Assembly: GCA_018971065.1 (NCBI GenBank)
Contig: JAGWVC010000003.1
Span: forward strand, 1-64,000
DNA length: 64,000 nucleotides
Reading direction: 5' to 3'
Source: Sphingomonadales bacterium
GTDB taxonomy: Bacteria; Pseudomonadota; Alphaproteobacteria; Sphingomonadales; Sphingomonadaceae
Positions 3,363-32,590 of the stretch are shown one piece after another; the first letter of the stretch is position 1; every line of letters begins with the position of its first letter. Under the pieces are notes generated by a model, which ran no database searches, was not told the origin of the DNA, and was given only the letters and a program-made list of their open reading frames with translations. Position numbers and translations under genes: made by a program.

Positions 3363-3421
3363 ATTTGCCCCCCGCGCCCAAGCGTTCTACAAGCGCAAGC
3401 GAACAACGGGGGACTTCACGC

Positions 3422-4047: not shown

Positions 4048-5081
4048 TCCAGCTCCATCTTGTCACGGAACGTCGAACGCTCGATCATCCCGGTCGCGGC
4101 CTCGCCGTCCCAGGTGTAGGTTGCGTGCGCCTGCTGGATCAGCGGATAGCTGTCGGGCAGGATCGACGGTCCGACGGACCGCGTGGCGATGAAGGTCACG
4201 CCGTCGATCGCGTGCCGCTCGCCGTCCTCGGTCTCCAGCACCAGCGGCACCGGCTCGCCCTGCGCCAGGAACTTGCGCATCCACGGGCTTGACACCGCCT
4301 TCGCCGGCTTCAGTTCGCCATCGCCGGTGAACACGAAGCCCTCGTTGAAATTGGGCGCTCCATCGTCGCGTGGCGGGAAGGTGTTGACCCCGAACGCCTT
4401 GCCACTCGGAAACAGCGCCGATTGCCAGCAGTGCCCCCAGAACCCCTCGAACTTGCGCACGCCCTGCCGCTTGATGCGCAGCGCCTGGCCCTTGAATTCG
4501 GTGCGCACGCCATCGACGTCCAGCCACCCCGAACACCGGCACAACTGCTCGAAGCGCGGGCTGATGAAGCTGCCCTGCTCGCCGGCCATCAGGTCGCGCG
4601 ATTCCCGGGTCAGCGTGCCCGACACCAGCGGCGGCGCTGCCGGTACGAAGTCGATCGCGAAGCTCACCGGCTTCTTCGGCCGGTCGGCGGGCGGCAGGTG
4701 CCCCTCGATCAGCTCGGCGGCGCTGGTCTCGGCCACGCCATGCGGGGCCATCGTCGCCCGCCACAGCCGGAACGGCTCGATGCACTGCAGCCGCACCGGC
4801 CCGGCACCCAGGATGGTGGGATTCCCGTCCGCGTCGATCGGGGAAGGGGGCGTCCCGCTCTCGCGCGCATGATAGGCCCGGCCGTCGGCGAAGGCCACGT
4901 CCAGCCAGATGTCGTGCGCGTCCCACTGCTCGGCCCAGCCCTCGATGCCGATCCGCATCGCGAAGGCGCCGTTTTCCTCCTCCAGCCAGAAATTCGCGGC
5001 ATCGCGCACGTCCGGCCCCGGTTTTTCGGCAAACACATGGTCGCGCGTCAGCGGTTGCCCGCCGGTCAGGTCGATTGCCAT
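4044..5081 (-). CDS. Conserved protein of unknown function (DUF7064/7065-like)
   Basis: The protein has 345 residues and starts at ATG 5081 behind a GGAGAG site; the open frame extends upstream to 5228 but overlaps the neighbouring TetR gene. It has no signal peptide and no membrane segment. It reads as a soluble beta-rich protein with many Trp and short acidic loops (IGIEGWAEQWDAHDIWLDVAF near the N terminus, HCWQSALFPSGKAFG in the middle). The layout recalls the sphingomonad families annotated as DUF7064/DUF7065, often found near degradation genes; that link is from memory and weak. No catalytic motif is evident. The next gene upstream on the same strand is a TetR regulator starting 126 bases away. 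Confidence 0.7.
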   Translation of the reverse strand: MAIDLTGGQPLTRDHVFAEKPGPDVRDAANFWLEEENGAFAMRIGIEGWAEQWDAHDIWLDVAFADGRAYHARESGTPPSPIDADGNPTILGAGPVRLQCIEPFRLWRATMAPHGVAETSAAELIEGHLPPADRPKKPVSFAIDFVPAAPPLVSGTLTRESRDLMAGEQGSFISPRFEQLCRCSGWLDVDGVRTEFKGQALRIKRQGVRKFEGFWGHCWQSALFPSGKAFGVNTFPPRDDGAPNFNEGFVFTGDGELKPAKAVSSPWMRKFLAQGEPVPLVLETEDGERHAIDGVTFIATRSVGPSILPDSYPLIQQAHATYTWDGEAATGMIERSTFRDKMELD

Positions 5082-5206
5082 CGGTTCTCTCCGTTCCTGT
5101 TTGCGCAAGCTTGCCGAACCGCCGGCGGCCTGCCTACAGGAATTTGCGAATCGCGACGGTATCGCCGGGGCGCGGCCATCACGCCCGGTGCTTCGTATCT
5201 GCGTCG

Positions 5207-5824
5207 TCAGGCCGGCGCGGCCGGCCAATCCCGGGCCAGGGCCAGAACGCCTTCATTGGCGCTGTGCAAATGCGTCGAGATCAGCTTCTCGCGATCCGCC
5301 CACGGAAAATAGCCGCGCGCCAGCAGCAGCGAGACCAGGCCATGCGTGGTAGCCCAGCACGATTGTGCCACCAGCAGCGTGCGTTCGTCGTGCCCGCCCA
5401 GGATTTCCGCCACCACGCCATAGAGGTTCATGAACGACTGCATGCCGGCATCCATGCTCGAATCGGGTTGGGGCGCGGTATGGCTTTCCGGCACCTCAAT
5501 CATGAAGGCGATTCGATAGACGTCGGGGTTGGCCAGGCCGAATTCGATATAAGTACGGCCCAACCGCTCAAGCTTCTCGATCGGCGTGCCGGGTATCGCC
5601 AGAACCGCATTCTGCTTCTCGACCAATGCCAGAAAACCGCGCGAACATATTTCGCCGGCAATGGCATTTGCGCTGGAAAAGTGTGCGTAAAGAGAAGGTT
5701 GCGAAATTCCGACGGCCTGCGCAATCCGCCGTGTGGATACATTCATCATGCCGTGCTGCGCGAACAACATGGTTGCGGCTTCTATTATCTGTTCGCGACG
5801 GCCGACTGCATTTTTCCTTGTCAT
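5207..5824 (-). CDS. TetR/AcrR repressor, likely controlling the adjacent RND efflux operon
   Basis: The protein has 205 residues. Residues about 8-55 form the helix-turn-helix (VSTRRIAQAVGISQPSLYAHF). The remainder is a helical ligand-binding domain with the pattern PDVYRIAF common in TetR C-terminal families. It is divergent from the RND adaptor gene, and the 72 bases between them contain a 15-bp palindrome (5873-5887) and a degenerate copy (5859-5873). Divergent TetR-RND pairs usually work by drug- or metabolite-triggered derepression (established). The same palindrome recurs upstream of the adhesin gene at 11545-11559, so the regulon may be wider. Confidence 0.88.
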   Translation of the reverse strand: MTRKNAVGRREQIIEAATMLFAQHGMMNVSTRRIAQAVGISQPSLYAHFSSANAIAGEICSRGFLALVEKQNAVLAIPGTPIEKLERLGRTYIEFGLANPDVYRIAFMIEVPESHTAPQPDSSMDAGMQSFMNLYGVVAEILGGHDERTLLVAQSCWATTHGLVSLLLARGYFPWADREKLISTHLHSANEGVLALARDWPAAPA

Positions 5825-5840
5825 TGTCGCTTTTTGCCAC

Positions 5841-5887
5841 TTGACAGGTTAACGTCAACCTATCAGTGATTGCCTATCGATGATAGG
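5841..5887 (+). promoter_or_regulatory. RND operon promoter with two TetR-operator-like sites
   Basis: TTGACA at 5841-5846 is a possible -35 element. A perfect palindrome CCTATCGATGATAGG lies at 5873-5887 and a half-degenerate copy, CCTATCAGTGATTGC, at 5859-5873, 14 bases apart. This is the arrangement expected for a TetR dimer pair repressing a divergent promoter. The -10 element is not clear. Confidence 0.6.
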
Positions 5888-5896
5888 TATCTTCCC

Positions 5897-6961
5897 GTGC
5901 ATGCGTTTCCAGGCGGCCAGAAGCGAACGTGCCCACGGCAAGTAATTGTCGTCGCATGGTTATTCCTGCTGGCAGGGTGCGGTAACAGCACTTCGCCAAC
6001 CGACGCGGAAAATCTCTCTGTCGAGGCGGTCGCCGTGCAGCCGGCGGCCGGTTCGGGTGGGGAGGAAAGTTTTCCCGCGGTGTTGCGTCGCGATCGGGAG
6101 TCGCGGCTGGCGTTCCGTGTCGGTGGCACGGTCGTTGCTGTCCCGGTCCGGCCGGGGGATCGGCTGGGTGCCGGGGCTGTCGTGGCGCAGGTCGATGCCA
6201 CGCCGCAGTCGGCGGCGGTGGCACGGGCCGAGGCTGAGGTTGAACGGCTGCAGCGCGCCGCCGTCCGTTATGGCCGTCTGGCTCAGGCCGGCGCGGTGGG
6301 GGAGGCGCAGGCGCGCGACAGTGGCAGCGCGCTGGCAGAGGCGCGCGCGGCGCTGGCGGCGGCGCGGCACGATCTTGCGGACACGCAGGTTCGCATGCCG
6401 TTTCCGGGCACGGTGCTGCAGCGCCATGCCGAAGTGGGTGAGGTTATCGGCCCCGGTTCGCCCGTGGCCACAGTGATTGACGGTTCCGCTCCGCTTGTCG
6501 TGGTCGCCGACGTTTCAGCGGAGAGGGTCGCCCGGTTGAGGCCGGGCGCACAGGGCCGGCTCCGCCTGACGGGAAGGGCGGAGCCGGTCCTGGCTGAATT
6601 GCGCAAGGTGCCGGGCGGGGCCGATCCGGCGACCGGCACCGCACGGGTCGAACTCGTGCTCAAAACGCAGGCCGGTCTGATCAGCGGCCAGGCCGGCAGT
6701 GTCAGCTTCGCCGATCGCGCCGAGCCCGCCGTCGCCGGTGAAGGCATCATCCCGGTCGAAGCGTTGCTGTGGGTGCGCGGCGCCAAGGCGGCCGTCTATG
6801 TGATCGACGGCCAGTCGCGGGCGCGCGGCCGGGAGGTCCGTTTCCTCGGCATGGATGGCGGCAGGGTGCGCATTGCCGGGCTGGCGGCGGGTGTCCGCGT
6901 CATCACCATCGGCGCCGGCTTCGCCCGCGAAGGGCAGCGGGTCGAGGTCGCCGGGAAATGA
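5897..6961 (+). CDS. RND efflux periplasmic adaptor (membrane fusion lipoprotein)
   Basis: The protein has 354 residues from GTG 5897, chosen because it gives a short basic N terminus, a hydrophobic stretch VIVVAWLFL and the lipobox LAGC, which predicts an inner-membrane lipoprotein. The HlyD-type body follows: a lipoyl half (AFRVGGTVVAVPVRPGDRL), a coiled-coil hairpin (about 85-140), the second lipoyl half (RMPFPGTVLQRHAEVGEVI) and beta-barrel and membrane-proximal domains. It bridges the inner-membrane pump and outer-membrane channel. Its stop overlaps the pump start (ATGA at 6958-6961). Expression is probably controlled by the divergent TetR gene. Confidence 0.88.
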   Translation: MHAFPGGQKRTCPRQVIVVAWLFLLAGCGNSTSPTDAENLSVEAVAVQPAAGSGGEESFPAVLRRDRESRLAFRVGGTVVAVPVRPGDRLGAGAVVAQVDATPQSAAVARAEAEVERLQRAAVRYGRLAQAGAVGEAQARDSGSALAEARAALAAARHDLADTQVRMPFPGTVLQRHAEVGEVIGPGSPVATVIDGSAPLVVVADVSAERVARLRPGAQGRLRLTGRAEPVLAELRKVPGGADPATGTARVELVLKTQAGLISGQAGSVSFADRAEPAVAGEGIIPVEALLWVRGAKAAVYVIDGQSRARGREVRFLGMDGGRVRIAGLAAGVRVITIGAGFAREGQRVEVAGK

Positions 6962-9900
6962 ACGCGCTGATCCGCGCGGCGGTCACGCGCTGGCAGATCA
7001 CCGCGCTGCTCACCGCATTGGTGGTGGCGTTGGGTATCGGCGCGTTCCATGCCATTCCGCGCACCGAAGATCCGCAGCTCAATTCCCCGATCTACCTGAT
7101 CACGGTGGTGGTTCCGGGTGGTTCGCCCGACGACATGGAGCAGCAGGTCGCCAAGCCGATCGAGGAGGCGCTGGGCAGTATCGACGACCTGCGTGATCTC
7201 AACTCGTGGAGCGGCAACGACGTCGTCACCCTGCGCGCCGAATTCAACTGGGGCGCCGATCCCGAACGCCGCTATGACGAGGTCGTGCGTGAACTGAACG
7301 CGCTGCGACCGCGATTGCCGACGAACCTCTCCCGGCTTGAGATCATGCGCGGCCGCAACACCGCCGTGCCGTTTGTCCAGGCGGCGCTGACCAGTGACCT
7401 GCTGCCGCCGGACCGGCTCGAAAAACTCGCCCGTCGCCTCAAGGACCGCATTGCCCGCGTCCCCGGCGTCCGCAAGGCCGAAGTCGTCGGTGCCGGCGCC
7501 GGCGAAATGCGCGTCAGTCTCGATTTCCAGAAGCTGGCGGTGCTGCATATTCCCGCCGGCGCGGTGATCGATGCGCTCCATGCTGCCGGCGCGGAAAGCC
7601 CGGTCGGCACGGTTCATGCCGGTGAACGGCGGTTGGTCGTCCGCACCGGCGGCGTTTATCCCGATGCCGCTGCCGTCGCGGCCGTGCCGGTGGCGCGTCG
7701 CAACGGCGTTGCCGTCCGCGTGGCCGATGTCGCCCGCGTCGAATGGGCCCAGCGCGAGGATGATCACCGCATCCGCTTCAACGGCCGGCGCGCCGCGCTC
7801 GTCACCGCCGAGCAGATCGACGGCCGCGATGTCCGCCTGCTCACCCGCGATGTCGAGGCCCAGCTCGATGCGTTCGAGCGCGAGCTTCCGGGCAGCGTCC
7901 GGCTCGAACGCGGCTTCACCCAGGCCAGCAACCTCAAGCACCGGCTCGACCAGCTCACCCGCGATTTCGTGCTCGCCATCGCCATCGTCGCGCTCACGCT
8001 GCTGCCACTGGGCCTGCGGGCCGCTGGCGTGGTCATGGTGGCGGTCCCGCTGTCGCTGCTGATCGGCGTTGCGGTGATGTGGCACATGGGCTTCACCCTC
8101 AACCAGTTGTCGGTGGCGGGGTTCATCCTGTCGCTGGGCCTGCTGGTCGATGATGCCATCGTCGTCGTCGAGAACATCGCGCGTTGGCTGCGCGGCGGTG
8201 CTTCGCGGGCGGAAGCGGCCATCGGCGCCACCAGCGAGATCGCGCTGGCGGTGATCGGCTGCACGGCCTGTCTGGGCTTCGCGTTCCTGCCGCTGATCGC
8301 CATGCCCGAGGCTGCGGGCGAATTCGTGCGCTCGCTTCCCGTTGCTGTGCTGGGCACGGTGGCGGGTTCGCTGCTGGTGGCGCTGACGCTGATTCCGTTC
8401 ATCGCCAGCCGGGTGCTGCCCCGGCATTCCGATCCGCATGGCAACCGTCTGCTGCAGGCGCTGACACGCGGCATCCAGCGGCTTTATGCCCCCGCGCTTC
8501 ACGCAGCGCTGGCCCGTCCCGGCCGCGCCGTCGCCTGGCTCGGCGGGCTGAGCCTGCTCACCATCCCGGTGGTCATGCTGATCGGCACCAGCCTGTTCCC
8601 GGCTGCCGACCTGCCGCAGTTCCTGGTCGAAGTGGCACTGCCGCGCGGCACCAGCATGGACCGCGCCGATCAGGCCGTGCAGGCGGTCGCCCACCGCATC
8701 GCCGCCGAACCCGGCATCGCCTGGACCGCGGCGAACATCGGCCGGGGCAACCCGTCGATTTACTACAACCGCTGGCCGCGCCCCGTCGATGCCTCCTCGG
8801 GCGAGATTGCCGCCGCCTTCCACCTGTGGAACCCCGCCACCAGCCCCCGGGCCATCGCGCGCCTGCGGCATGATCTGGCGGGCACCCCCGGTGCCGAAGT
8901 CACGATCCACACCTTCATGCAAGGCCCCCCGATCGAGGCGCCGGTTGCCATCCGCATCGCCGGGCCGGACATGGGCGTGCTGACCCGCCTGGCGCGCCAG
9001 TCCGAGGGCCTGCTCAAGGCAATGCCCGAATTGCGCGACATCGGCGATCCGCTGCGGCTGGATCGTACCGAACTCGATCTCGGTATCGACCAGGCGCTTG
9101 CCGCCGGCCTTGGCGTCCCTGCCGGCGCGGCACGACAGGTCACGCAACTGGCGCTTGTCGGTGCCCCGGCGGCGCTGTTGCGCGATGCCGACGGTGATGG
9201 CTATCCCGTCACGGTACGCCTGCCGATGGCCGGGCAACGCAACGACATCGCCGCGCTCGGCCAGGTCCAGGTGCCGACGGACAGCGGCGGCACCGTCCCG
9301 CTTTCGGCCATCTCCAGCCCCACGCTGCGGTCCGGCCCGGCGCAGATCGAACGCTACAATCGCGAACGCGTCGTCACGCTCACCGCCGACGTCCGGGACG
9401 GCGTGCAGACCAGCCGCGCCACCGCGAAGGCCGTTGCCACCCTGCAATCGGCGCTGAAATTGCCCCCCGGCTATCGGCTGATGCTGGCCGGCGAAGCCCA
9501 GTCGCAAGAGCGCAGCTTTGCCGGGCTGACCACCGCGATCGCGGTTGCGCTGCTCGGCATCATGGCGGTGCTGGTCCTCGAATTCGGTCGCTTCCGCACC
9601 GTCGCGGTGGTTGCCGGGGTCATCCCGCTCGGCCTGCTCGGCGCGGTCGTGGCCCTGGGCATCACCGGCAACTCGCTATCGTTCACAGCGTCGGTCGGGG
9701 TGATCGCGCTCACCGGCATCGAGATCAAGAACTCCATCCTGCTGGTCGATTTCACCGAACAGATGCGCCGCGCCGGCGCCTCGGTGCGCGAGGCGGTGGA
9801 GAAAGCCGGGGAACTGCGCTTCCTTCCCGTCCTGCTCACCTCGATCACCGCGATCGGCGGGCTGCTGCCGTTGGCGCTGGAACGCAACGGGCTTTATTCG

Positions 9901-10008
9901 CCGGTTGCCATCGCCATGATCGGGGGGCTGCTCTCGTCCACGCTGCTCGCCCGCATCGCCACCCCGGTGCTTTACCTGCTGCTCAACCCCGAAGCGCCGC
10001 CCGCATGA
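6958..10008 (+). CDS. RND family multidrug/metabolite efflux pump, inner-membrane subunit
   Basis: The protein has 1016 residues, the usual AcrB-family length. It has a first transmembrane helix near 13-32, a large periplasmic loop, a block of helices at about 335-530 with the proton-relay motif LVDDAIVVVEN near residue 396, a second periplasmic loop, and a final helix block from about 855. It belongs to the broad HAE/CzcA-like RND superfamily; VVVPGGSPDDMEQQV near the start is typical of divergent alphaproteobacterial members. It exports substrates by proton antiport through the adaptor and outer-membrane factor genes on either side. The substrate cannot be read. It overlaps both neighbours by four bases, so the three genes form a translationally coupled operon. 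Confidence 0.92.
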   Translation: MNALIRAAVTRWQITALLTALVVALGIGAFHAIPRTEDPQLNSPIYLITVVVPGGSPDDMEQQVAKPIEEALGSIDDLRDLNSWSGNDVVTLRAEFNWGADPERRYDEVVRELNALRPRLPTNLSRLEIMRGRNTAVPFVQAALTSDLLPPDRLEKLARRLKDRIARVPGVRKAEVVGAGAGEMRVSLDFQKLAVLHIPAGAVIDALHAAGAESPVGTVHAGERRLVVRTGGVYPDAAAVAAVPVARRNGVAVRVADVARVEWAQREDDHRIRFNGRRAALVTAEQIDGRDVRLLTRDVEAQLDAFERELPGSVRLERGFTQASNLKHRLDQLTRDFVLAIAIVALTLLPLGLRAAGVVMVAVPLSLLIGVAVMWHMGFTLNQLSVAGFILSLGLLVDDAIVVVENIARWLRGGASRAEAAIGATSEIALAVIGCTACLGFAFLPLIAMPEAAGEFVRSLPVAVLGTVAGSLLVALTLIPFIASRVLPRHSDPHGNRLLQALTRGIQRLYAPALHAALARPGRAVAWLGGLSLLTIPVVMLIGTSLFPAADLPQFLVEVALPRGTSMDRADQAVQAVAHRIAAEPGIAWTAANIGRGNPSIYYNRWPRPVDASSGEIAAAFHLWNPATSPRAIARLRHDLAGTPGAEVTIHTFMQGPPIEAPVAIRIAGPDMGVLTRLARQSEGLLKAMPELRDIGDPLRLDRTELDLGIDQALAAGLGVPAGAARQVTQLALVGAPAALLRDADGDGYPVTVRLPMAGQRNDIAALGQVQVPTDSGGTVPLSAISSPTLRSGPAQIERYNRERVVTLTADVRDGVQTSRATAKAVATLQSALKLPPGYRLMLAGEAQSQERSFAGLTTAIAVALLGIMAVLVLEFGRFRTVAVVAGVIPLGLLGAVVALGITGNSLSFTASVGVIALTGIEIKNSILLVDFTEQMRRAGASVREAVEKAGELRFLPVLLTSITAIGGLLPLALERNGLYSPVAIAMIGGLLSSTLLARIATPVLYLLLNPEAPPA

Positions 10009-11423
10009 CCCGCCACGCGTCGACCCTGCTGGCCCCGCTGGCACTTGCCGCCTGCACGGCCGGACCGGATTACCACCCGGCACCGGCCCCATTGCCGCAG
10101 CACTGGCAATCCGCTCCCGCCGCCGTTTTGCCTGACTCCGGTGACTGGTGGCGCAGCCTCGGCGATCCCGCACTCGACGCGCTGGTAACCCGCGCGCTGG
10201 CCGCCAATCCCGACATCGGCCAGGCGCTCGCCCGGATCGACCAGGCCCGTGCCCAGGCTGGCATGGCCCGCGCCAGCCAGCTTCCGGCGGCGGAGATCAC
10301 CGGCACCGTCGCCCGCACCCGCCAGTCGCTGGAGGGCGGTCTCGGCCAGATCTCGCGCTACGTCCCCGGCTATGAACGCATGGCCAGCGACGCGCAGCTC
10401 GGCCTCGCCGCGCGGTGGGAGCTTGACCTTGCCGGGGGCCAGCGCCGCGAGCGCCAGGCCGCGCTGGCCATGCTCGATGGCGCCCACGCCGGGGCCGATG
10501 CCGCCCGGCTGACGGTGGCGGGCGCCGTCGCCGAAACGTGGGTCCGCCTCCGCGCCGCCGAAGCCCGCCTTGCCCTGCTGGAGGAACGCCGCGCGCAGAT
10601 GGTTCAGCGCCGCGCAATCATGGCCGTCCGGGTCGGGGAGGGGGAGGCCGCCCCCGCCGCGCTCGAACAGACCGACGCCGCGCTTGCCGGGTTCGATGCC
10701 GCCGTGCCGGTGCTGCGCGCCGTCGCCGACACCCTGCGGCACCGCCTCGCCATTCTCGCCGGTCTACCGGTCGGCAGCGCCTTGCCCGAACTTGCCCGCC
10801 CGGCCACGCTCGGCTTCGTCGGCAATGGCTTCTACACGCCGCTGCCGGCCGATCCCGCCGCCGGGCTGCCTGCCACTATCCTGCGCCGCCGCCCCGATCT
10901 GCGCCTTGCCGAAGCCCGCGCCGTCGCCGCCAATGCCCGAATCGGCCAGGCGCTGGCCGAATGGTGGCCGCAACTGTCGCTTGCGGGTCTCGCCGGGTTC
11001 GACAGCACCCGGCTCGGCGCATTCGGCTCGGATCCTTCCAGCGTCGTCACCGGTGCGGCCGGTTTGCGCTGGCGCCTGCTCGATTTCGGCCGGGTCCAGG
11101 CGCAGGTCGATGCCGCGCGCGGCGGCGCCAGGGAAGCGCTGGAGGCGTACCGCGGCGCGGTGCTTGCGGCGGGCACCGATGTTGAGGATGCGTTCACGCT
11201 GCTGGCCGCGCGCCGGGGCGAAGCCTCCGCCCGCGCCACCGCGCTGCAATCCACCCGCAATGCCTTCACCCGCAGCGCCGCCGCTGCCCGGGAAGGCGAA
11301 ATCAGCCGTGACGCGCTGGCCGAGCAACGCATGGCCTTGCTGGTCGCCGAGGACGAAGCCGTCGCCGCGCGTGCCGAAGCCTGGCTTGCCCTCATCGCGG
11401 CCTATCGCGCCATCGGCGGCTGA
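10005..11423 (+). CDS. Outer-membrane efflux channel, NodT/OprM family lipoprotein
   Basis: The protein has 472 residues. It starts with a signal peptide and lipobox (LALAAC, Cys near 17) followed by GPDYHPAP, the characteristic N terminus of the NodT/OprM group. Two repeats of the TolC-like helical domain follow (for example NPDIGQALARIDQARAQAG, and RRPDLRLAEARAVAANARIG near 295). It forms the trimeric exit duct of the tripartite pump. The start overlaps the pump stop (ATGA 10005-10008). No strong terminator follows. Confidence 0.92.
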   Translation: MTRHASTLLAPLALAACTAGPDYHPAPAPLPQHWQSAPAAVLPDSGDWWRSLGDPALDALVTRALAANPDIGQALARIDQARAQAGMARASQLPAAEITGTVARTRQSLEGGLGQISRYVPGYERMASDAQLGLAARWELDLAGGQRRERQAALAMLDGAHAGADAARLTVAGAVAETWVRLRAAEARLALLEERRAQMVQRRAIMAVRVGEGEAAPAALEQTDAALAGFDAAVPVLRAVADTLRHRLAILAGLPVGSALPELARPATLGFVGNGFYTPLPADPAAGLPATILRRRPDLRLAEARAVAANARIGQALAEWWPQLSLAGLAGFDSTRLGAFGSDPSSVVTGAAGLRWRLLDFGRVQAQVDAARGGAREALEAYRGAVLAAGTDVEDAFTLLAARRGEASARATALQSTRNAFTRSAAAAREGEISRDALAEQRMALLVAEDEAVAARAEAWLALIAAYRAIGG

Positions 11424-11678
11424 ATCCGTCCGGCAAGGCCGCCGTTCCGTCGGGCAACTTGCGCCGAAACGGATTCAATTCCGTTGGAAATCGAACCTGA
11501 ACCGCATGGCTGCCACAAAGTGGCGGTGCTTGGCCTGAGAAAATCCTATCATCGATAGGATTCCTGCCCTTTACAAAACTTTCCTGATATTACAGTACCT
11601 ACTCGGGTCGCACAACGGCGCGCACACGGTTGCGCCGCCGGCGGAGCGTGCCCGGGAAATATCCAAAGGGGTTCGTTC
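11424..11678 (+). promoter_or_regulatory. Adhesin upstream region with perfect palindrome identical to the RND operator
   Basis: This 255-base gap holds a palindrome with 9-base arms at 11542-11550 and 11554-11562 and a 3-base spacer. Its 15-base core (11545-11559, CCTATCATCGATAGG) is the exact reverse complement of the site at 5873-5887 beside the TetR gene. It lies 117 bases before the adhesin start. An AAAGGGG ribosome site precedes the ATG at 11679. No gene is supported in the gap. Confidence 0.6.
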
Positions 11679-14600
11679 ATGATTTCGGGTGCGCACGCCA
11701 GCAATCTTCAGCCGTCCGTCCGCCGTTCTCGTCACGGACTCAACCGCGTGCTGCTGTGCGCCACCATGCTGGCCGGCCTTGCCCCGGCCACCGTTCACGC
11801 CCAGGCACTGCCCACCGGTGGCACCGTCGTCGCCGGCAACGCCGCCATCGCCACCAACGGCCCGGCGATGACGGTCACGCAGACCGGCAATCGCGCCATC
11901 ATCGACTGGGCGGGCTTCTCGGTCGGCAACGGCGCCAGCGTGGCCTTCCAGAACGGCCACGGCGCCACGCTTAACCGCGTCACCGGGACGGACATTTCCC
12001 GCATCGACGGCAGCCTCACCGCCACCGGCTCGCTCTATCTGGTCAACGCCAACGGCGTCGTCATCGGCAAGGACGGCGTGGTCAATACCGGCGGCACTTT
12101 TGTGGCCTCCACGCTCGACATCGCCAACGCCGATTTCATCAAGGGCGGTGATCTCGCGTTCTCCGGCGCCTCGCGCGCGCAAGTCGTCAACCTTGGCAAG
12201 GTCGGTTCGCTCGGCGGCAACGTCGCGCTCATCGGCGCCACCGTCATCAACCAGGGCGCCATCACCGCCGCCAACGGCACCGCCGGCCTCATCGCCGGCG
12301 GCAGCGTGCTGCTGCGCGACACCGCGAACGATGCCGGCGGCCTGTTCAGCGTGCTCTATGGCGATGCGCAGACCAGCGCCGCCAACGGCGGCACCATCGC
12401 GGCGGCCAGCGCCGAACTGCGCGCCCAGCAGGGCAACGTCTACGCGCTGGCCGGCAATACGGCGGGCGTGATCGACGCCACCGGGGTGCGCGCCGGGCAG
12501 GGCAAGGTCTGGCTGGTCAGCGAGGGCGGCACCACGCAAGTCGCCGGCACCATCACCGCGCAAGGGCCGGATGGCGCGGCGGGCTTCGTGGAGACGTCGG
12601 GCAAGACGCTCCAGATCGGCGATACGCGTGTCAACAGCCATGATGGCAACTGGCTGATCGATCCCGAAGATCTGGCAATCGACGCGATCACCGCCTTCAG
12701 TTTGCAGACCTCGCTCATCACGGGCGACGTCACCGTCACCACCAATGGTGCGGGCAGCGGCGGCTCCGGCGATATTCTCGTCAACACCGCGCTGGGGTGG
12801 AACAGCAGTCACACGCTCACGCTGAACGCCTGGCGCAACATCGTGTTCAACGCCAACGTCGATGCCGGCAGCAGCGGCAAACTCGCGCTGCAATACGGGA
12901 TGGGCGCCGTCGCGGCCGGCAACACCGCCACGTATTCGCTGGGCGACGGCGCAAAGATCATCCTGCCCGCCGGACAGAACTTCACCACCCAGCTCGGCAA
13001 CGACGGCACCCCGGTAAACTGGACCGTCATCACCGATCTCGGCACCGCGACCTCGCACACCGGCACCGATCTGCAAGGCATGCAGAGCAATCTCAGCGGC
13101 AACTACGTCCTCGGCGCTGACATCGACGCTTCGGCCACCTCTGGCTGGAACGGCGGCGCCGGCTTCAGCCCCATCGGTGACAACAGCCAATTCTGGGCCC
13201 GCTTCAACGGCGCGTTCGACGGCCTTGGCCACACCATTTCCAACCTCACCGTCAACCGTCCCGGTTACAACTGGCAGGGCCTGTTCGGCTATGTCGGTTC
13301 GGGCACGATAAGCAATGTTGCCCTCACCAACGCCTCGGTCACCGGTTACTATCAAGTGGGCGGACTGGTCGGCCAAGCCGATGGTGGATCGATCAGCAAT
13401 GCCTTCGTTTCCGGTTCGGTCAGCGGACAGCAAATGGTGGGCGGGATCGTCGGCTACACGCAAGGCGCGATTGATGCCTCCAGCAGCGCCGCTTCCGCCA
13501 GTGGTAGCGCATCGGTTGGTGGATTGGCCGGACAGGTTTTCGGCAGCACCGTCAGCAACAGCCACGCTTCAGGCACGGTTTCCGGTGGTGGCAATCTCGG
13601 CGGTCTGATCGGTTATGTCAATTCCGCCAGTCTCAGCAACGTTTTCGCCACCGGTTCCGTGCGGGGTACGTCGTTTGTTATCGGCGGTCTTGTCGGCCAA
13701 AACTACGGCGGCACGATCGCTTATGCCTATGCCACCGGATCCGTTACGGGCGGCTCCGACGTGGGCGGTCTCGCTGGCAAGAATAGCGGGACGATTCAGA
13801 ATGCCTTTGCAACCGGCGACGTCAACGGAAGCACTGGCGGCGGACTGGTGGCCATTAACCAGGGCACCATCAGCGACAGCTATGCCACCGGTGGTGTCTC
13901 GGGCAGTGGCATCCGGGGCGGCCTGGTCGGCTGGAACGACAGCGGCACCATCTCGTCCAGCCTGGCGCTCGGTCAGGTCGCGGGCAGCGGCAACGGCCTG
14001 ATCGGCTCCAACTACAACGGCACCGTCACCAACAGCTACTGGAACACCACCACCAGCGGCCAGTCCACCAGTGCCGGCGGCAGTGGCGCCACCGGCCTCA
14101 CCACCACCCAGCTTGCTGCCGCGCTGCCCACCAGCTTCGGCGCCACCAACTGGGCCAACGGCAACAACCAGACCACGCCCTACCTCAAGGGCTTCGGCTG
14201 GGCGCCCACCAGCGGCGTCGCCATCCTCGGCACTGATACCAGCGCCAATGCCACCTACTACAACGTGTTGACCAGCATCGCCCAGGTGCAGGCCATCAAC
14301 GACGTCATCAATTTCAACCCCTATGGCAACTACATCCTCGGCGCCAACATCGATGCCACCGCCACGGCGGGCTGGAACGGCGGTGCCGGCTTCGTGCCGA
14401 TCAACGATCAGTACAACTGGGGCTTCCAGGGCCGCTTCAATGGCCTCGGCTACACGATTGATGGGCTGACCATCAATCGCCCGGGGCAGGACTATGTCGG
14501 CCTGTTCGGGATCGCCCAGAACAGCACGATCACCGGGGTCAACCTCACCAATGCCGCCATCACCGGCAGGGGCAACGTCGGCGGAATCGTCGGCATCAGC

Positions 14601-17600
14601 TACGGCACTGTCAGCAACAGCAGCGTCAGCGGCAGCGTTTTTGGCAGCTATCACGTTGGCGGTCTGGTCGGCGATAACGAGGGAACGATTTCCGGCAGCC
14701 ATGCGTCGGCCACGATCGACTTTGACAGCAATGGCAGCCGCACACAGATCGGCGGGCTGGTCGGCTACAACGGCCACATCATCACCACCAGCTATGCCAC
14801 CGGCACGGTCAACAGCTCCGGTCAGGAAGACGGCCAATATTTGGGCGGCCTCGTCGGCATGAATGCCAATGGCACCATCTCGCGCAGCTATGCCAGCGGC
14901 AATGTGCTCGGCTATGCCCAGGTCGGCGGCCTCGTCGGCGCGAACTACTATAGCGGCGCGATCAGTGACAGCTATGCCACCGGCAGCGCCACCGGCAGCC
15001 AGCAGGTCGGTGGTCTGGTCGGTGACAACTATGCTTCCTCCACGATCGATCAAAGCTACGCCACCGGTCACATCGTTGCGGATTTCTTCCTGCCGCAATA
15101 TCAATTCGGCGGCGGTCTGGTCGGTCGCAACGATAACGCGGCCTCCGTCACCAACAGCTACTGGAATACGGACACCTCGGGCCAGTCCACCAGCGCGGGG
15201 GGCACCGGCCTCACCACCACGCAGTTGATGCAGGCATCGAACTTCTCGAACTGGTCGATCGATGGCGTCGGCGGCCAGAACGCCACCTGGCGCATCTACG
15301 AAGGCAGCACGGCCCCGCTGCTCAAAACGTTCCTCACGCAAGCCACAGTCAACGTCGCGGCGCAGACCACCGCCACCTACAACGGGCTGGTCCCCTCGGC
15401 GGACTTCACCGCCACGCTAGCTGACGGCTCCGCTGCCGATCGGACAAAGATCCTCGGCACCGCCAATTCCGTCTGTTTCGCCGGCGGTTGCACCGATGTC
15501 GGCACGTACACCCTCTCGTTCACCACCAACGGCCTCTATTCCACCCAGCAGGGCTACGATATCGTCGGCGGTCACGCCGGCTCCAGCAATCTCACCATCA
15601 ACCCGCGCGCCATCAGCGTCACGGCCGATGCCCTGTCGCGCGTCTATGGCGATGCCAACCCCGCGCTCACCTTCACCGTCGGCGGCGCGGGGCTTGCCGG
15701 CGGCGACACCATCGCCTCGGTGTTCGGCGGCGCCCTCGCCACCAGCGCCACCAGCATTTCGGATGTGAACGCTTACGCCATCACCCAGGGCACATTGGCC
15801 CTCGGCAGCAGCAACTACACGCTGACCACGTTCACGGACGGCACCCTCACCGTCACCCAGCGCCCGCTCACCGTCACCGCCAACGCCGCCACGCGCCTCT
15901 ACGGCGATTTCAACCCCACGTTCACCTACACCGTCAGCGGCGGCTTCGTCGGCAGTGACACCGCCGCATCCATCCTTCGCGGCTCGCTGGCTGCTGAAGC
16001 CAACGCTCGCGACGACGTGAACACGTACCCCATCCTCCGGGGCAGTCTGGCCAGCAACTCGGGCAACTACAGCATCGTCTACCAGGGTGCCGATCTCACC
16101 GTCACCCCGCGCCCGGTCACCGTCACTTACACCGCCGACGCCGTCAGCCGCATCTACGGCAACGACAACCCCACGCTCTCCGGCATCGCCAGCGCCGGCG
16201 GCTACACCAGCACCAGCGGCTTCATCGGCGGCGACCACCCCACCGGCACCGCGTTGTGGACCACCACCGCCGACGCAACCTCGCACGTCGGGTCCTACGG
16301 AATCACCGGCTCGGGCCTGACCGTCGGCAGCAACTACACGCTCACCGAAGTCCAGGCCGCCGGCAACGCCACCGCGCTGACGGTCACCGCGCGGCCGATC
16401 ACCGTCACGGCCGATAACGTCTCGCGGTCCTACGGTGATGACAACACGATCAATGGCGGCAGCCTGTTCACCTACTCGATCACCAGCCAGAACGGCCTCG
16501 TCGGCAGCGATAGCTTCGCGGGCAGCCTGACTTCGACTGCCGACCAGACCACCGGCATCGGCAACTATGCCGTCACCCAGGGCGACCTGGCTCTGTCAAC
16601 CGACTACGCCCTCACCGTCCAGCCGGGCACGCTCACCATCAACCCGCGCTATCTGCAAATCCTGTACTGGGCGACCGGCCAGTCCCGCGCCTATGGCGAC
16701 GCCAACCCCGTGTTGACCGGCTCCGTAACCCCAGATGGCTTGGTCAACAACGATCAACTCAGCGGAACCGCCGTCTGGACCACCGCCGCCAACGCCACCT
16801 CGAATGTCGGCAATTACGCGATCACCGGCAGCGGCCTCACCGCCTCGGCGAATTACGATGTGCATGTCGCCCAGAATCCTTTCCGCAATTTCACCATCAC
16901 CCAGCGGTATGTCAACGTCACCGCCGATGCCGTCAGCCGCGCCTATGGCGATGCCAATCCCGCGCTGACCTACACCGTCAGCCGCGCCAGTGGCACCGGC
17001 AGTGGTCTGGTCAACGGCGATACGCTCTCCACCGGCGCGCTGGCCACCACCGCCAGCCCCGGCAGCAGCGTCGGCACATATGCCATCACCCAGGGCACTC
17101 TGAACAATCGTGGTGTGGTGAATTCCAACTACTCGATCCGGTCGTTCACCGGCGCCAACCTCACCATCAACCCTCGCGCGCTGACGGTTACCTACACCGC
17201 CGCCGCCTCCAGCCGCACCTATGGCGACAACCCCGATGGCAGCCCGGCGCTCACCGGCAGCTACACCACCAGCGGCCTCTACGGCACCGACACCGTCAGC
17301 GGCACCGCCACGTGGAGCAGCACCGCCACCGCCACCACCGGGGCAGGCGGCCAGGCCATCACCGGCGCGGGCATCACCGCCTCGGCCAACTACACCGTCA
17401 CCGCCGTACAGGCCGCCGGCAACGCCACCGCGCTGACCATCAACCCCAAGGCGCTGACGATCACGTACACCGCCACCGCCGCCAGCCGCATCTATGGCGA
17501 CGCCAACCCGGCGTTCACCGGCACCGCCACATCGTCGGGCCTGGTCAACGGCGACACGCTGTCCGGCACCGCGCTGTGGGCCACCACCGCCACCGTCGCC

Positions 17601-19592
17601 ACCGGTGTCAGCACCGCCGACATTACCGGCTCGGGCCTCACGGCGGGTGCCAACTACACCGTCACCGCCGTGCAGGCCGCCGGCAACAGCGCCGCGCTCA
17701 CTATCACCCAGCGCCCGCTCAACATCACCTATACCGCCACCGCCGCCGCGCGCGCCTATGGTGATGCCAATCCGTCGCTCACCGGCACGGTCACGGCGGA
17801 CAATCTCGTCAATGGCGACACGCTCGGCGCCACGGCGTTGTGGGCTACCGCTGTCGGCACCACCACCGGCGTCGGCAGCTATGGCGTCACGGGTTCGGGC
17901 GCCGTCGCCTCGGCAAACTACGTCGTGACCTCGGCCCAGTCCCCGGCCAACGCGACCGCGCTGACCATCAACCCGCGCGCGTTGACCGTCACCTACACCG
18001 CCACCGCCGCCAGCCGCGCCTATGGCGATGCCAACCCGTCGCTCACCGGCGAATACGCGTCCATCGGCCTCGTCAACGGCGACACGCTGTCCGGCACCGC
18101 ACTGTGGTCCACCACCGCCACCGCCGCCACCGGCATCGGTCACTATGGCATCACCGGCTCAGGCCTCACGGCTTCGTCCAACTACACGCTCACCACGCAG
18201 CAGGCCGAAGCCAGTGCCAGCGCGCTCACCATCAACCCGCGCGCGCTCGCCGTCACATATACCGCGGATGCCGCCAGCCGGGCCTATGGCGACTCCAACC
18301 CCACCCTGACCGGTACCGCCAGTGCCAGCGGTCTGGTCAACGGCGACACGCTTTCCGGCACCGCGCAGTGGGCCACCACGGCCGACAACACCACCGGCAT
18401 CGGCAATTACGGCATCACCGGCACAGGGCTGACCGCCTCGGCCAACTACACGCTGACCGTTGCCCAAGGCGCCAACAACGACACCGCGCTCACCATCAAT
18501 CCGCGCGCGCTGACCATCACCTACACCGCCAGCCCGTTCACCCGCGTCTATGGCGCGGGCAATGCGGGGATGACGGGCGTGGCGATCCCGACCGGGCTGG
18601 TCAACGACGACACGCTGACGGGAACCGTGCGCTGGACCAGTCCGTGGGGGGCAACCGCTCCGGTCGGCAGCTACAATATCGTCGGTTCGGGCCTCGCGGC
18701 CAACGCGAACTACACGGTCACCAGCGTGCAAGCCGCCGCCAATGCGACCGCGCTTACCATCAACCCGCGTCCGTTGACGGTCACTTACACGGCCACCGCC
18801 GCCACCCGCATCTATGGCGATGCCAATCCGGCCCTTTCGGGCACCGTCACCTGGAACGGCCTCGTCAACGGCGATCAACTTTCCGGCTCGGCATTGTGGG
18901 CCACCACCGCCACCACGGCCACCGGCGTCGGCAATTATGCGGTCACCGGCTCGGGCCTCACCGCGTCAGGCAACTACACGCTGACGGTGGCCCAGGCCGC
19001 GGGCAACGCCGGCGCGCTTGCTATCAACCCGCGTGCGCTGACCATTACCTACACCGCCACCGCCGCCAGCCGCGTCTCGGGCCTCGCCAACCCGGCGTTC
19101 ACCGGCACCACCGCCGCCACCGGCCTGGCCGGCACCGACACGCTGGCCGGCGTCACCAGCGGCACCGCCACCTGGACCAGCGCGGCCGATGCTGCCTCGC
19201 TTCCGGGCAACTATGCCATCAACGGCGCAGGGCTGGCCGGTAACAGCGGCAACTACAGCTTCGCCTTCCAGCAGGCCGCCGCCAACGCCACCGCGCTGAC
19301 CGTGCAGCCGGTCATCGTCAACCTGCCGGTGCAGCCGGTCAGCGGCGGCGTGACGACCGACCCTGGGGTATACCCCTCTGGTCCGATAATAACCCTCGAT
19401 CCGCCGCCAGCGGGCGACCTGATTAACGACGGCTTCATCGCGCCGACCCCCGGGGCGGGCGGCAGACAGAGGCTGTTGGATCTGGGTGACGCGCAACGCC
19501 AGACCGACTCGATCGGCACGATCGTGATCGTTCTGCCGGCCGACAATGGTCCCGTGATCACCTCCTTCAACAACAACGATACGATCTACTAA
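11679..19592 (+). CDS. Filamentous haemagglutinin-type secreted adhesin (TpsA) with GLUG and MBG repeats
   Basis: The protein has 2637 residues. An extended signal peptide ends near residue 42 (ATVHAQA). The two-partner-secretion domain spans about 43-300, with the hallmark VNANGVVIG near 126 in place of NPNGI. GLUG-type repeats (GGLVG or GGIVG, then S..S.A.G) occur at about 550-780 and again at 960-1150. From about 1310 to 2540 there are 14 MBG-type repeats, each opened by a YGDANP-like motif, the last one degraded to VSGLANP. A short Pro-rich tail ends in DTIY. TpsA proteins are exported by the Sec system and then threaded through their TpsB partner to the cell surface, where they act in adhesion or biofilm. 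The tpsB gene follows 16 bases later. The repeats are also similar at DNA level, so copy number may vary between strains. Confidence 0.9.
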   Translation: MISGAHASNLQPSVRRSRHGLNRVLLCATMLAGLAPATVHAQALPTGGTVVAGNAAIATNGPAMTVTQTGNRAIIDWAGFSVGNGASVAFQNGHGATLNRVTGTDISRIDGSLTATGSLYLVNANGVVIGKDGVVNTGGTFVASTLDIANADFIKGGDLAFSGASRAQVVNLGKVGSLGGNVALIGATVINQGAITAANGTAGLIAGGSVLLRDTANDAGGLFSVLYGDAQTSAANGGTIAAASAELRAQQGNVYALAGNTAGVIDATGVRAGQGKVWLVSEGGTTQVAGTITAQGPDGAAGFVETSGKTLQIGDTRVNSHDGNWLIDPEDLAIDAITAFSLQTSLITGDVTVTTNGAGSGGSGDILVNTALGWNSSHTLTLNAWRNIVFNANVDAGSSGKLALQYGMGAVAAGNTATYSLGDGAKIILPAGQNFTTQLGNDGTPVNWTVITDLGTATSHTGTDLQGMQSNLSGNYVLGADIDASATSGWNGGAGFSPIGDNSQFWARFNGAFDGLGHTISNLTVNRPGYNWQGLFGYVGSGTISNVALTNASVTGYYQVGGLVGQADGGSISNAFVSGSVSGQQMVGGIVGYTQGAIDASSSAASASGSASVGGLAGQVFGSTVSNSHASGTVSGGGNLGGLIGYVNSASLSNVFATGSVRGTSFVIGGLVGQNYGGTIAYAYATGSVTGGSDVGGLAGKNSGTIQNAFATGDVNGSTGGGLVAINQGTISDSYATGGVSGSGIRGGLVGWNDSGTISSSLALGQVAGSGNGLIGSNYNGTVTNSYWNTTTSGQSTSAGGSGATGLTTTQLAAALPTSFGATNWANGNNQTTPYLKGFGWAPTSGVAILGTDTSANATYYNVLTSIAQVQAINDVINFNPYGNYILGANIDATATAGWNGGAGFVPINDQYNWGFQGRFNGLGYTIDGLTINRPGQDYVGLFGIAQNSTITGVNLTNAAITGRGNVGGIVGISYGTVSNSSVSGSVFGSYHVGGLVGDNEGTISGSHASATIDFDSNGSRTQIGGLVGYNGHIITTSYATGTVNSSGQEDGQYLGGLVGMNANGTISRSYASGNVLGYAQVGGLVGANYYSGAISDSYATGSATGSQQVGGLVGDNYASSTIDQSYATGHIVADFFLPQYQFGGGLVGRNDNAASVTNSYWNTDTSGQSTSAGGTGLTTTQLMQASNFSNWSIDGVGGQNATWRIYEGSTAPLLKTFLTQATVNVAAQTTATYNGLVPSADFTATLADGSAADRTKILGTANSVCFAGGCTDVGTYTLSFTTNGLYSTQQGYDIVGGHAGSSNLTINPRAISVTADALSRVYGDANPALTFTVGGAGLAGGDTIASVFGGALATSATSISDVNAYAITQGTLALGSSNYTLTTFTDGTLTVTQRPLTVTANAATRLYGDFNPTFTYTVSGGFVGSDTAASILRGSLAAEANARDDVNTYPILRGSLASNSGNYSIVYQGADLTVTPRPVTVTYTADAVSRIYGNDNPTLSGIASAGGYTSTSGFIGGDHPTGTALWTTTADATSHVGSYGITGSGLTVGSNYTLTEVQAAGNATALTVTARPITVTADNVSRSYGDDNTINGGSLFTYSITSQNGLVGSDSFAGSLTSTADQTTGIGNYAVTQGDLALSTDYALTVQPGTLTINPRYLQILYWATGQSRAYGDANPVLTGSVTPDGLVNNDQLSGTAVWTTAANATSNVGNYAITGSGLTASANYDVHVAQNPFRNFTITQRYVNVTADAVSRAYGDANPALTYTVSRASGTGSGLVNGDTLSTGALATTASPGSSVGTYAITQGTLNNRGVVNSNYSIRSFTGANLTINPRALTVTYTAAASSRTYGDNPDGSPALTGSYTTSGLYGTDTVSGTATWSSTATATTGAGGQAITGAGITASANYTVTAVQAAGNATALTINPKALTITYTATAASRIYGDANPAFTGTATSSGLVNGDTLSGTALWATTATVATGVSTADITGSGLTAGANYTVTAVQAAGNSAALTITQRPLNITYTATAAARAYGDANPSLTGTVTADNLVNGDTLGATALWATAVGTTTGVGSYGVTGSGAVASANYVVTSAQSPANATALTINPRALTVTYTATAASRAYGDANPSLTGEYASIGLVNGDTLSGTALWSTTATAATGIGHYGITGSGLTASSNYTLTTQQAEASASALTINPRALAVTYTADAASRAYGDSNPTLTGTASASGLVNGDTLSGTAQWATTADNTTGIGNYGITGTGLTASANYTLTVAQGANNDTALTINPRALTITYTASPFTRVYGAGNAGMTGVAIPTGLVNDDTLTGTVRWTSPWGATAPVGSYNIVGSGLAANANYTVTSVQAAANATALTINPRPLTVTYTATAATRIYGDANPALSGTVTWNGLVNGDQLSGSALWATTATTATGVGNYAVTGSGLTASGNYTLTVAQAAGNAGALAINPRALTITYTATAASRVSGLANPAFTGTTAATGLAGTDTLAGVTSGTATWTSAADAASLPGNYAINGAGLAGNSGNYSFAFQQAAANATALTVQPVIVNLPVQPVSGGVTTDPGVYPSGPIITLDPPPAGDLINDGFIAPTPGAGGRQRLLDLGDAQRQTDSIGTIVIVLPADNGPVITSFNNNDTIY
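15600..19300 (+). repeat. MBG repeat array inside the adhesin gene (14 units)
   Basis: About 3.7 kb consists of 14 tandem coding units of roughly 230-300 bases, each encoding a short linker (NPRALTVTYTA-like), a YG-D-NP motif, a GLVNGD-L-GTA block and an ANYT-like close. Counted motif starts are at about 15645, 15900, 16155, 16430, 16690, 16940, 17215, 17490, 17755, 18020, 18285, 18545, 18810 and 19075. Confidence 0.8.
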
Positions 19593-19608
19593 CATCATGG
19601 AGACCAAC

Positions 19609-21378
19609 ATGCCCCGCAATCGCCGGTCCCGCGCGGCCGCGCGCAGCCTCGCTGGCAACCTCAACGCCTGCACGCTTCTGGGTTGCGCTTCGGTCGTGGC
19701 GATGAGCGTAGCCGCCTCCACCCCGGCCGCCGCCCAGGCGATCGAGCGCAACCCTGCGCCCACCCCGCAGGCTGCCGCCCCGCGTATTCCGCCCGCGCCG
19801 TTGGCTGATCCCGCCGCTGATGCCACCCCGCTGGGCGTCGCGCTCGGCAGCATCGCGGTCGGTGCCGATGCCGCGCTTGCCCCCGCCGCGCCGGGCACGG
19901 TCAGCCTTGCCGCGCCGCGCCCGATGCCCCGGCTGGAAGCCCGCCTGCGCGGCTTCCTCGGCCAGCCGCTGTCGCTCAAGCTCGTCGCGCAGATCAAGGC
20001 GGCGGTGGCGGGCGAATGGCGACAGGCAGGTTTCCCGTTCGTCCGCGTCACCGCGCCCCGGCAGGATTTGTCCGGTGGCCGGCTGGTCTTGCGCATCGAT
20101 GAATACCGGCTGGGCAGCGCCCATGCCGAAGGTGCCGATGCCGACGAAGCGGCGCGCATCGCCCATGCCATCCGCCAGCAACCGGGCGGGTCGATTGCCA
20201 CCGATCCGCTGATCGAGGATCTCGATTGGCTCAACAAATATCCATTCCGCCGGGTTGAGGCGGTCTTCAGCGCCGGCAAGGCCGTCGGCGAAACCGATGC
20301 CACGTGGAAGGTCGGCGAGGGCAAGCGCTGGAGCGTCGGCGCCGGCTATGCCAATACCGGTTCGCCCGATGCCGGCATGAATCGCGCCTTCATCCAGGTG
20401 CTTGCCGGCCTGCCCGGCAGCGATGCCTGGGCCAGCTACCAGCTCACCACATCGGGCCAGCGCTTCACCAATCTTGGCAACCCGCCGTCGGGCAGCCGCC
20501 GCTATATCAGCCACGCCGCGCATCTCGCGGTTCCGCTGGCGCCGCGTACCACGCTTGAAGTCGATTTCGGCGACATTGCCTCGGCCCAGCCGGTCGATGC
20601 TTTCGATGCCCACCAGCACACCCAGGAATGGTCGCTGATCGCGCGCACCGCGCTGTCGAACCTCGCGCCTTCGCTGTCCGGCGAAATCTACGGGGGCTTT
20701 GCGTGGAAGCGGCAGCGCGGCCACACGCTGTTCGGCGGCACCGAAATCGCGCAGACCGCGTACAACGTCGGCACGTTCACGCTGGGCTATGCCTGGCACC
20801 GCTATGACAGTCGCGGCGAAACCGGGCTCGATCTCGCCCTTCACGCCAGCCCCGGCGGTCTCGGCAGCCTTGCCACCGACGCCGCTTACGCTGCGGCTTC
20901 GCGCGGCGGCTTCACCAAGGCCCGCTTCCTCTATGCCACCGGTTCGTTCTATCGGCATACCCGGTTCGGCGATTTCAGCCTGAACAACAGCCTTTCGTGG
21001 CAGTTTTCGGGCGCGCAACTGCCGGGGACGGAACAGACCGGGCTCGGCGGCCACGGGCAGGTTCGCGCCTACACGCTGGATGATGGCGCGTTTGATCGCG
21101 CCGTGGTGCTCCGCAACGAATTGCGCCGCGACATGAAGCCGCTGGGCGCCGGCACACAGGCAGCCTGGGCGCCCTGGCTTTATGTCGATGCGGGTTATGC
21201 CGGCCAGGCTGCTACCGGCAAGGCATCGCATGCCATCGGCGCTGTCGGCGCTGGCATCGATGTCAACATCGCCCGGAACTTCAGCATCACCGCTGACGGC
21301 GGCGTGGCCCTGGCCGATCAGGGCAACACCCGCGCCGGTGACTTGCGCGGCAATGTGCGGGCCACCCTGCGGTTCTGA
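19609..21378 (+). CDS. Two-partner secretion transporter (TpsB, ShlB/FhaC/HecB family)
   Basis: The protein has 589 residues from ATG 19609, preferred over ATG 19597 because GGAGA at 19599-19603 lies at the right distance. The signal peptide ends near AAAQA. A Pro/Ala-rich linker is followed by one clear POTRA domain (about 105-165, with RGFLGQPLSL and GFPFVRVTAP), a second part and a C-terminal beta-barrel that ends in Phe (NVRATLRF), the usual outer-membrane insertion signal. It forms the outer-membrane pore that exports the adhesin encoded directly upstream. A strong hairpin follows the gene. Confidence 0.9.
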   Translation: MPRNRRSRAAARSLAGNLNACTLLGCASVVAMSVAASTPAAAQAIERNPAPTPQAAAPRIPPAPLADPAADATPLGVALGSIAVGADAALAPAAPGTVSLAAPRPMPRLEARLRGFLGQPLSLKLVAQIKAAVAGEWRQAGFPFVRVTAPRQDLSGGRLVLRIDEYRLGSAHAEGADADEAARIAHAIRQQPGGSIATDPLIEDLDWLNKYPFRRVEAVFSAGKAVGETDATWKVGEGKRWSVGAGYANTGSPDAGMNRAFIQVLAGLPGSDAWASYQLTTSGQRFTNLGNPPSGSRRYISHAAHLAVPLAPRTTLEVDFGDIASAQPVDAFDAHQHTQEWSLIARTALSNLAPSLSGEIYGGFAWKRQRGHTLFGGTEIAQTAYNVGTFTLGYAWHRYDSRGETGLDLALHASPGGLGSLATDAAYAAASRGGFTKARFLYATGSFYRHTRFGDFSLNNSLSWQFSGAQLPGTEQTGLGGHGQVRAYTLDDGAFDRAVVLRNELRRDMKPLGAGTQAAWAPWLYVDAGYAGQAATGKASHAIGAVGAGIDVNIARNFSITADGGVALADQGNTRAGDLRGNVRATLRF

Positions 21379-32588: not shown

Positions 32589-32590
32589 AC

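Follow-up and report, generated by a model that had tools for sequence, protein, structure and literature searches.

Why should the operator of an efflux-pump repressor stand a second time, in front of the gene for a giant secreted adhesin? The question is raised by a stretch of 64,000 nucleotides from a Sphingomonadales bacterium (positions 1 to 64,000 of contig JAGWVC010000003.1, assembly GCA_018971065.1), hereafter the window, in which a gene for a TetR-family repressor (tetR) lies head to head with a resistance-nodulation-division (RND) efflux operon, and the next operon along is a two-partner-secretion pair, tpsA and tpsB. A preliminary description of this DNA had pointed out that a palindrome between tetR and the pump recurs before tpsA, and had proposed that one repressor controls efflux and adhesin together. 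The full explanation that we consider fairly likely is that one TetR represses the pump, its own gene and tpsAB through three operator boxes (Table 1). It rests on four observations, namely the identity of the sites, the association of the operator with a subgroup of TetR proteins, its rarity, and the presence of satellite sites in relatives.

A direct reading bears out nearly all that had been said of the two sites. The 15-mer CCTATCGATGATAGG at 5873-5887 returns as its exact reverse complement at 11545-11559, and at this second site the palindrome does extend to the 9-base arms described, AATCCTATC-ATC-GATAGGATT at 11542-11562, which are fully complementary. Both sites are perfect inverted repeats around a 3-base centre, as claimed, and a scan of the window for CCTATC-N3-GATAGG returned exactly these two perfect matches. 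The distance to the tpsA start needs a small correction, as 119 bases rather than 117 separate the 15-mer from the ATG at 11679. The same scan returned one further match, with two mismatches, at 5859-5873; this box was absent from the preliminary description, and relatives show such a tandem layout. There are in total three boxes of this operator type in the window, two at the pump and one at tpsA. In shuffled sequences a tolerance of two mismatches gave a mean of 0.75 matches, with three or more in 6 of 100 shuffles, and the strong point is the exactness of the sites and not the bare count of motifs. The flanks of the two exact sites are identical at 20 and 12 of 60 positions, no better than chance; we therefore rejected an origin of the tpsA site by copying from the tetR promoter.

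Does the intergenic box belong to the neighbouring repressor? A search with the TetR protein found 280 proteins at E <= 0.001, and among the 120 listed the best eleven besides the window's own, all metagenomic, were 58-64% identical by local alignment. The query was aligned with 32 of these proteins, 33 sequences in all, for a scan of genomes, and the best 80 of 103 encoding stretches, mainly from Sphingomonadales and Caulobacterales, were kept as loci L001-L080. The best box within 300 bp 5' of the tetR match differed from CCTATCANTGATAGG by 0-2 mismatches in 52 of the 80 loci, by 3-4 in 25 and by more in 3, giving a box with at most four mismatches in 77 of 80; the exact motif CCTATC-N3-GATAGG was present at 28 of the 80 tetR loci. 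Tandem boxes 14 bp apart, each with at most three mismatches, occurred in 33 of 80, and the window has the same layout on the minus strand. In addition, five loci (L008, L010, L011, L013 and L015) have a third box 5' of tetR, 28 bp from the second, and four others (L067, L069, L071 and L080) have two boxes 19-21 bp apart, not 14. The divergent operon of membrane fusion protein, RND permease and outer membrane efflux protein (OEP) is kept beside tetR at, for example, L001, L002 and L004-L007, although not at every one of the 80. As expected for a local repressor, the window thus combines a TetR_N domain (51.9 bits) and a TetR-type C-terminal domain (TetR_C_33, 47.7 bits), both over cut-off, with a divergent RND operon and a conserved intergenic dyad. 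These comparisons support the box at 5873-5887 as operator DNA of the TetR repressor encoded beside it.

To place the tpsA site on the same scale, a symmetric matrix was built from 105 boxes (at most three mismatches to a consensus written by eye, and at most three per locus) taken from 62 of the 80 loci; the 18 loci that contributed no boxes are nearly all from Caulobacterales, and both exact sites of the window were left out of the training. With this relatives-only matrix the two sites score 24.5 bits each, where the median of the training boxes is 23.5 and 39 of the 105 score as high or higher. The third-best place in the window is the second tetR box, at 21.7 bits, and the fourth reaches 14.2. 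Over 300 dinucleotide shuffles of the window the maximum was 19.0 bits, and with the next place outside the tetR operator at 14.2 the earlier judgement that a chance origin is very unlikely stands. In the 1.33 Mb of L001-L080, 125 places score at least 16 bits: 122 lie no more than 400 bp 5' of the tetR match and 3 lie elsewhere; since the matrix was trained on tetR boxes, it is the small number elsewhere that is informative. Together these scores support 11545-11559 as a site of the same specificity as the tetR box and of equal predicted strength. We regard it as very improbable that the tpsA palindrome matches by accident, being instead a chance dyad or an RNA hairpin that weakly terminates the pump operon. 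An RNA stem of at least eight pairs could form, and the motif does occur at a low chance rate, since copies with no TetR relative seen near them are present in 10 of 298 family genomes; against this, none of the 300 shuffles gave a site of 20 bits or more, and the 56 nucleotides around the palindrome fold only moderately better than shuffled sequence (z -2.0). No run of T follows, the palindrome was not reported as a terminator, and the terminator reading was set aside as unsupported.

Is the operator used away from tetR by organisms that carry this repressor? Within the genus of G001, a Novosphingobium genome, 195 genomes were scanned: a TetR relative at E <= 1e-30 was found in 22, the exact motif in 17 and both in 13, and the two co-occur well beyond expectation (Fisher p 1.6e-11). 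The genus scan gave 22 places with the exact motif against 6 for a reversed control. The 13 genomes with both carry 18 motif copies, 12 at tetR and 6 before one monooxygenase gene. These six exact sites lie 9-34 bp 5' of a PF13826 monooxygenase-like gene in the Novosphingobium genomes G001, G003, G004 and G006 (loci L090, L083, L085 and L086, respectively), two of which have two boxes 22-24 bp apart. A relative of the window's TetR was sought in the 13-15 kb around the monooxygenase gene (L111-L114) and not found. Exact copies before a distant gene therefore indicate that satellite targets exist, and the PF13826 gene, distant from tetR as it is, is a probable satellite target of TetR by the evidence of its sites. 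As a separate observation, two Sphingomonas bins lack the box at tetR and have one about 2 kb downstream of the start of the tetR match (L034, 7260-7274; L036, 2822-2836), that of L036 lying 63 bp 5' of a gene for a MatE transporter, which is convergent with tetR.

The repressor itself offers a further comparison, with the TetR of Tn10. The DNA interface of the latter includes Thr27, Arg28, Glu37, Gln38, Pro39, Thr40, Tyr42, Trp43 and His44, and its operator has CTAT half-sites with a 5-base spacer (PMC2723105). In an ungapped alignment with an offset of 4, the window's TetR has T31 and R32, and S41, Q42, P43, S44, L45, Y46, A47 and H48, at the contact places. On the residues listed there (PMC2723105) it agrees with Tn10 TetR at Thr27, Arg28, Gln38, Pro39, Tyr42 and His44, and has Ser, Ser and Ala in place of Glu37, Thr40 and Trp43. 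The window operator, CTAT-N5-ATAG, likewise has tetO-type half-sites and spacer, and tetO2 of Tn10, given as TCCCTATCAGTGATAGAGA (PMC11686294), is nearly identical and scores 25.0 bits with the relatives' matrix. Nevertheless, the protein falls outside the NCBIfam TetR equivalog (35.8 bits against a cut-off of 265), and the pump beside it is of the RND type, unlike tetA, the gene regulated by Tn10 TetR. In all 37 loci with a QPSLY helix and a TATC-N3-GATA core, C:G stands outside the core on both sides, whereas all 12 with QPALY and the core have T:A on one side or both. The base outside the core goes with helix residue 44 (S or A, at the position of Thr40 in TetR), an association confounded by kinship.

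How might the second site act? With a TetR-type repressor head to head with the RND operon, dimers would bind the two pump-side boxes and cover the region downstream of the TTGACA hexamer at 5841-5846, keeping both the pump and tetR repressed as long as no inducer is bound. A dimer would also sit on the equally good box before tpsA, 5' of the probable tpsA promoter, and lower transcription of tpsAB, so that binding of the inducer would release pump and adhesin together. The binding of TetR, the sense in which tpsA would respond and the involvement of an inducer are inferred from sequence. Of the joint control put forward in the preliminary description, the identity of the tetR operator and the equal strength of the tpsA site hold good, while conservation of the tpsA site was not found, and control of tpsA itself is predicted from the site. 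Because a consensus search of 5700-12000 reported no promoter-like site, the promoter positions at the pump and at tpsA are guesses; a hexamer scan at the pump gave 9/12 with TTGACA-N18-AGTGAT.

The N-terminal part of TpsA matches PF05860, the two-partner-secretion (TPS) domain, at 88.6 bits and TIGR01901 at 62.1 bits, with MBG_2 found on the whole frame; PF03865 and POTRA_2 are over cut-off in TpsB, which matched no NCBIfam family. A TpsA with a TPS domain adjoining a TpsB with POTRA and ShlB domains is the arrangement of two-partner secretion, and as in the FhaB/FhaC type the window's pair joins a TPS domain to a ShlB/FhaC-type partner in one apparent operon. Nothing unusual was noticed in the two genes themselves, and the unusual part is the TetR-type operator in front of them.

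That operator lies between the OEP stop (11423) and the tpsA ATG and begins 122 bases past the former, a position that suits another role as well: the repressor may bind there while the site serves as a roadblock for transcription of the pump operon, or as a neutral decoy, with no action on a tpsA promoter. A strong tpsA promoter was not recognised, and an intrinsic-terminator-like site was looked for on the plus strand between OEP and tpsA with none reported; read-through into tpsA is therefore possible, and the site could act on it. We think this unlikely, since the three matches of at least 16 bits away from tetR (L034, L036 and L040) are all in loci without an OEP match, and a site after the pump is therefore not a usual part of the pump operon. 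Indeed, a site after the pump operon was sought throughout L001-L080 and none reached 16 bits.

Table 1. Coordinates of the predicted operators, genes and candidate promoter elements in the window.
Feature	Position	Strand	Description
Operator box 1	5873-5887	none	Perfect dyad CCTATCGATGATAGG in the divergent tetR/RND intergenic region; 24.5 bits, counterparts in relatives
Operator box 2	5859-5873	none	Imperfect dyad CCTATCAGTGATTGC, 14 bp from box 1; 2 mismatches; 21.7 bits
Second operator copy	11545-11559	none	CCTATCATCGATAGG, 119 bp 5' of tpsA; 24.5 bits
tetR	5207..5824	-	TetR-family repressor, 205 aa; recognition helix QPSLYAHF; TetR_C_33 C-terminal domain
RND membrane fusion protein	5897..6961	+	TIGR01730, 147.5 bits (cut-off 94.9); predicted GTG start
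RND efflux permease	6958..10008	+	Pfam ACR_tran, 598.5 bits (scored on the longer frame 6769-10008); predicted start
Outer membrane efflux protein	10005..11423	+	Pfam OEP, 102.8 bits
tpsA	11679..19592	+	Large two-partner-secretion exoprotein, 2637 aa; TPS domain, MBG repeats
tpsB	19597..21378	+	ShlB/FhaC-type outer membrane transporter; PF03865 48.1 bits, POTRA_2 25.7 bits
Candidate -35 of the pump operon	5841..5846	+	TTGACA; the -10 would fall in box 2
Weak candidate tpsA promoter	11570..11596	+	TTTACA-N15-TACAGT (TTTACA 11570, TACAGT 11591), hexamers 9/12; just 3' of the second operator; uncertain

Several results weigh against joint control by one TetR, and they concern first the motif. Four genus genomes carry one copy each without a TetR ortholog (best E 2.1e-13 to 1.2e-4), and in 298 genomes of the family the motif was found at 17 places in 16 genomes, no commoner than the reversed control at 23 places in 21 genomes. 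In 10 of those 16 genomes no TetR relative was found in the 3 kb around the site; 4 of these ten places are inside reading frames and 6 outside. The family sample speaks for a low motif background where TetR is absent, and some of the copies are due to other proteins or to chance. The preliminary description had held that many unrelated copies would tell against its proposal: among the genus genomes with TetR the copies confine themselves to tetR and the monooxygenase gene, as counted above, and in the family sample the motif does no better than its control. Because of that sample, the bare motif says little in genomes without TetR.

The same TetR-less copies raise the possibility, which we consider improbable, that the genome encodes a second DNA-binding protein of this specificity and that it is this protein which uses the tpsA site. 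Those four of the 17 motif-bearing genus genomes, with no close TetR, would fit such a protein, and the loci L109 and L110 (of G042 and G233) would do so too, as they carry the motif 5' of a reading frame and neither locus shows a TetR relative; the two have nearly identical surroundings there, and another regulator may use the motif. The other 13 of the 17 have the window-type TetR, however, and in each of the 22 TetR genomes a single match reached E <= 1e-30, out of at most 16 candidates scored per genome. Within the window the further TetR-type genes, at 3470-4024 (+) and 32531-33244 (+), are without a QPxLYxH helix, and the tetR product is the only frame of at least 60 aa that carries a Q[PA]xLYx[HY]F helix. 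The C-terminal domains of these two other products are weakly BetI-type (below cut-off) and AefR-like, respectively.

The remaining objections to joint control by one TetR concern tpsA. Its promoter is not convincingly located, and if TTTACA at 11570 is the -35 the operator lies upstream of it and repression is less certain; there is also only one box at tpsA against two at the pump. A TpsA or TpsB match was sought in L001-L080 and none was found, with OEP matched in 23, so that only part of the loci surely reach beyond the pump. In 119 genus genomes searched for TpsA there were matches in 21, and 30 of the 32 listed places were taken as loci; none of the 30 has the site at two mismatches or fewer, although they include loci of five genomes that have TetR (G003, G005, G006, G008 and G349). 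In 396 genomes of the order there were 7 TpsA matches at E <= 1e-55, and one of these seven loci (L178, of G702) has CCTATCGTCGGTACG just before the gene, with two mismatches and a poor second half; the best TetR match of G702 is 35% identical. The closest TpsA found, that of G394 (69% over residues 9-374), is in a genome with no TetR ortholog (best E 7.9e-9) and has no site, and at its locus no pump match was found in 30 kb and the sequence upstream gives no convincing alignment to the corresponding part of the window. Some of the TpsA loci are inner pieces of genes, or possibly lie at a contig end, and their upstream region is not always complete. With 1 of 37 loci at two mismatches or fewer and none better, a conserved site before tpsA in other species was rejected; the tpsA site appears to be particular to the lineage of the window, as far as searches of relatives reach. 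On balance we lean slightly towards a history in which the tpsAB operon, lying beside an RND pump, acquired an independent, full-strength copy of the operator, and one inducer of efflux would both open the pump and display the giant adhesin.

At the beginning of the window, positions 200-1732 are 75.6% identical to genes for an ATP-binding protein and a response regulator on a plasmid of Sphingomonas parapaucimobilis. A plasmid origin was considered and rejected, as this was a single match at that identity over 8% of the first 20 kb, with none for 3000-11700.

A link between a pump repressor and an adhesin is not new, as the published case of MtrR and nadA provides a precedent. Neisseria MtrR, a TetR-family regulator of mtrCDE efflux, shifts the mtrCDE and nadA promoters and directly represses the adhesin gene nadA, for which FarR is the primary repressor; the effect of MtrR is mainly seen on over-expression, and its site at nadA is only surmised there (PMC3568044). 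As there, a TetR-family regulator of a pump would act on an adhesin gene in the window, where the action is predicted from the site; in contrast, the window site is an exact copy of the cognate operator and the adhesin operon is the next one along. NadA is not known as a two-partner-secretion protein, and what the window would add is, probably, a two-partner-secretion operon as a satellite target.

Other TetR-type regulators offer partial likenesses. TipR of Caulobacter crescentus represses the divergent acrAB-nodT and djlA, with four sites by chromatin immunoprecipitation (PMC10754441). The window resembles it as an alphaproteobacterial TetR-type gene divergent from an RND operon, with a shared operator and few distal targets. 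It differs in the inverted repeat, 5'-TGAGAATGAAC-3' for TipR and CTATC-N3-GATAG in the window, and the distal target of TipR is a co-chaperone (PMC10754441). Orthology with TipR is unsupported, the window operator CCTATC-N3-GATAGG not being the TipR repeat; the TipR residues S53 and E119 were not both found in 11 Caulobacter loci, which is weak evidence because starts are uncertain (the nearest ATG or TTG was taken). In Acinetobacter nosocomialis, AcrR is reported as a local repressor of an efflux pump required for biofilm formation (PMC6090078); the link named in that title runs through the pump, whereas in the window a second operator stands at the adhesin gene itself. TetR-family regulators with several targets are recognised (PMC6790063). 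In titles and the openings of abstracts of open-licence literature, no TetR repressor was found to act on an RND pump and also on an adhesin or two-partner-secretion gene, apart from MtrR/nadA and, indirectly, AcrR.

Where TetR is present, the operator is specific enough that probable satellites such as the adhesin, the monooxygenase and the MATE transporter could be listed by pattern search, and its closeness to tetO2 makes possible cross-talk with Tet-controlled expression tools in such hosts something that can be checked. If joint control by one TetR is true, the window would record how, in one lineage, a local pump repressor captured an adhesin, and, if the operator before tpsA was indeed acquired, it would show such a repressor partway to heading a small regulon, alongside the satellites at monooxygenase and MATE-transporter genes of relatives. 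A sphingomonad-like bacterium would then be the setting of a link between efflux and attachment, in which a chemical that induces efflux also switches on a large surface adhesin, and toxic exposure would be tied to attachment by one protein and two operators.

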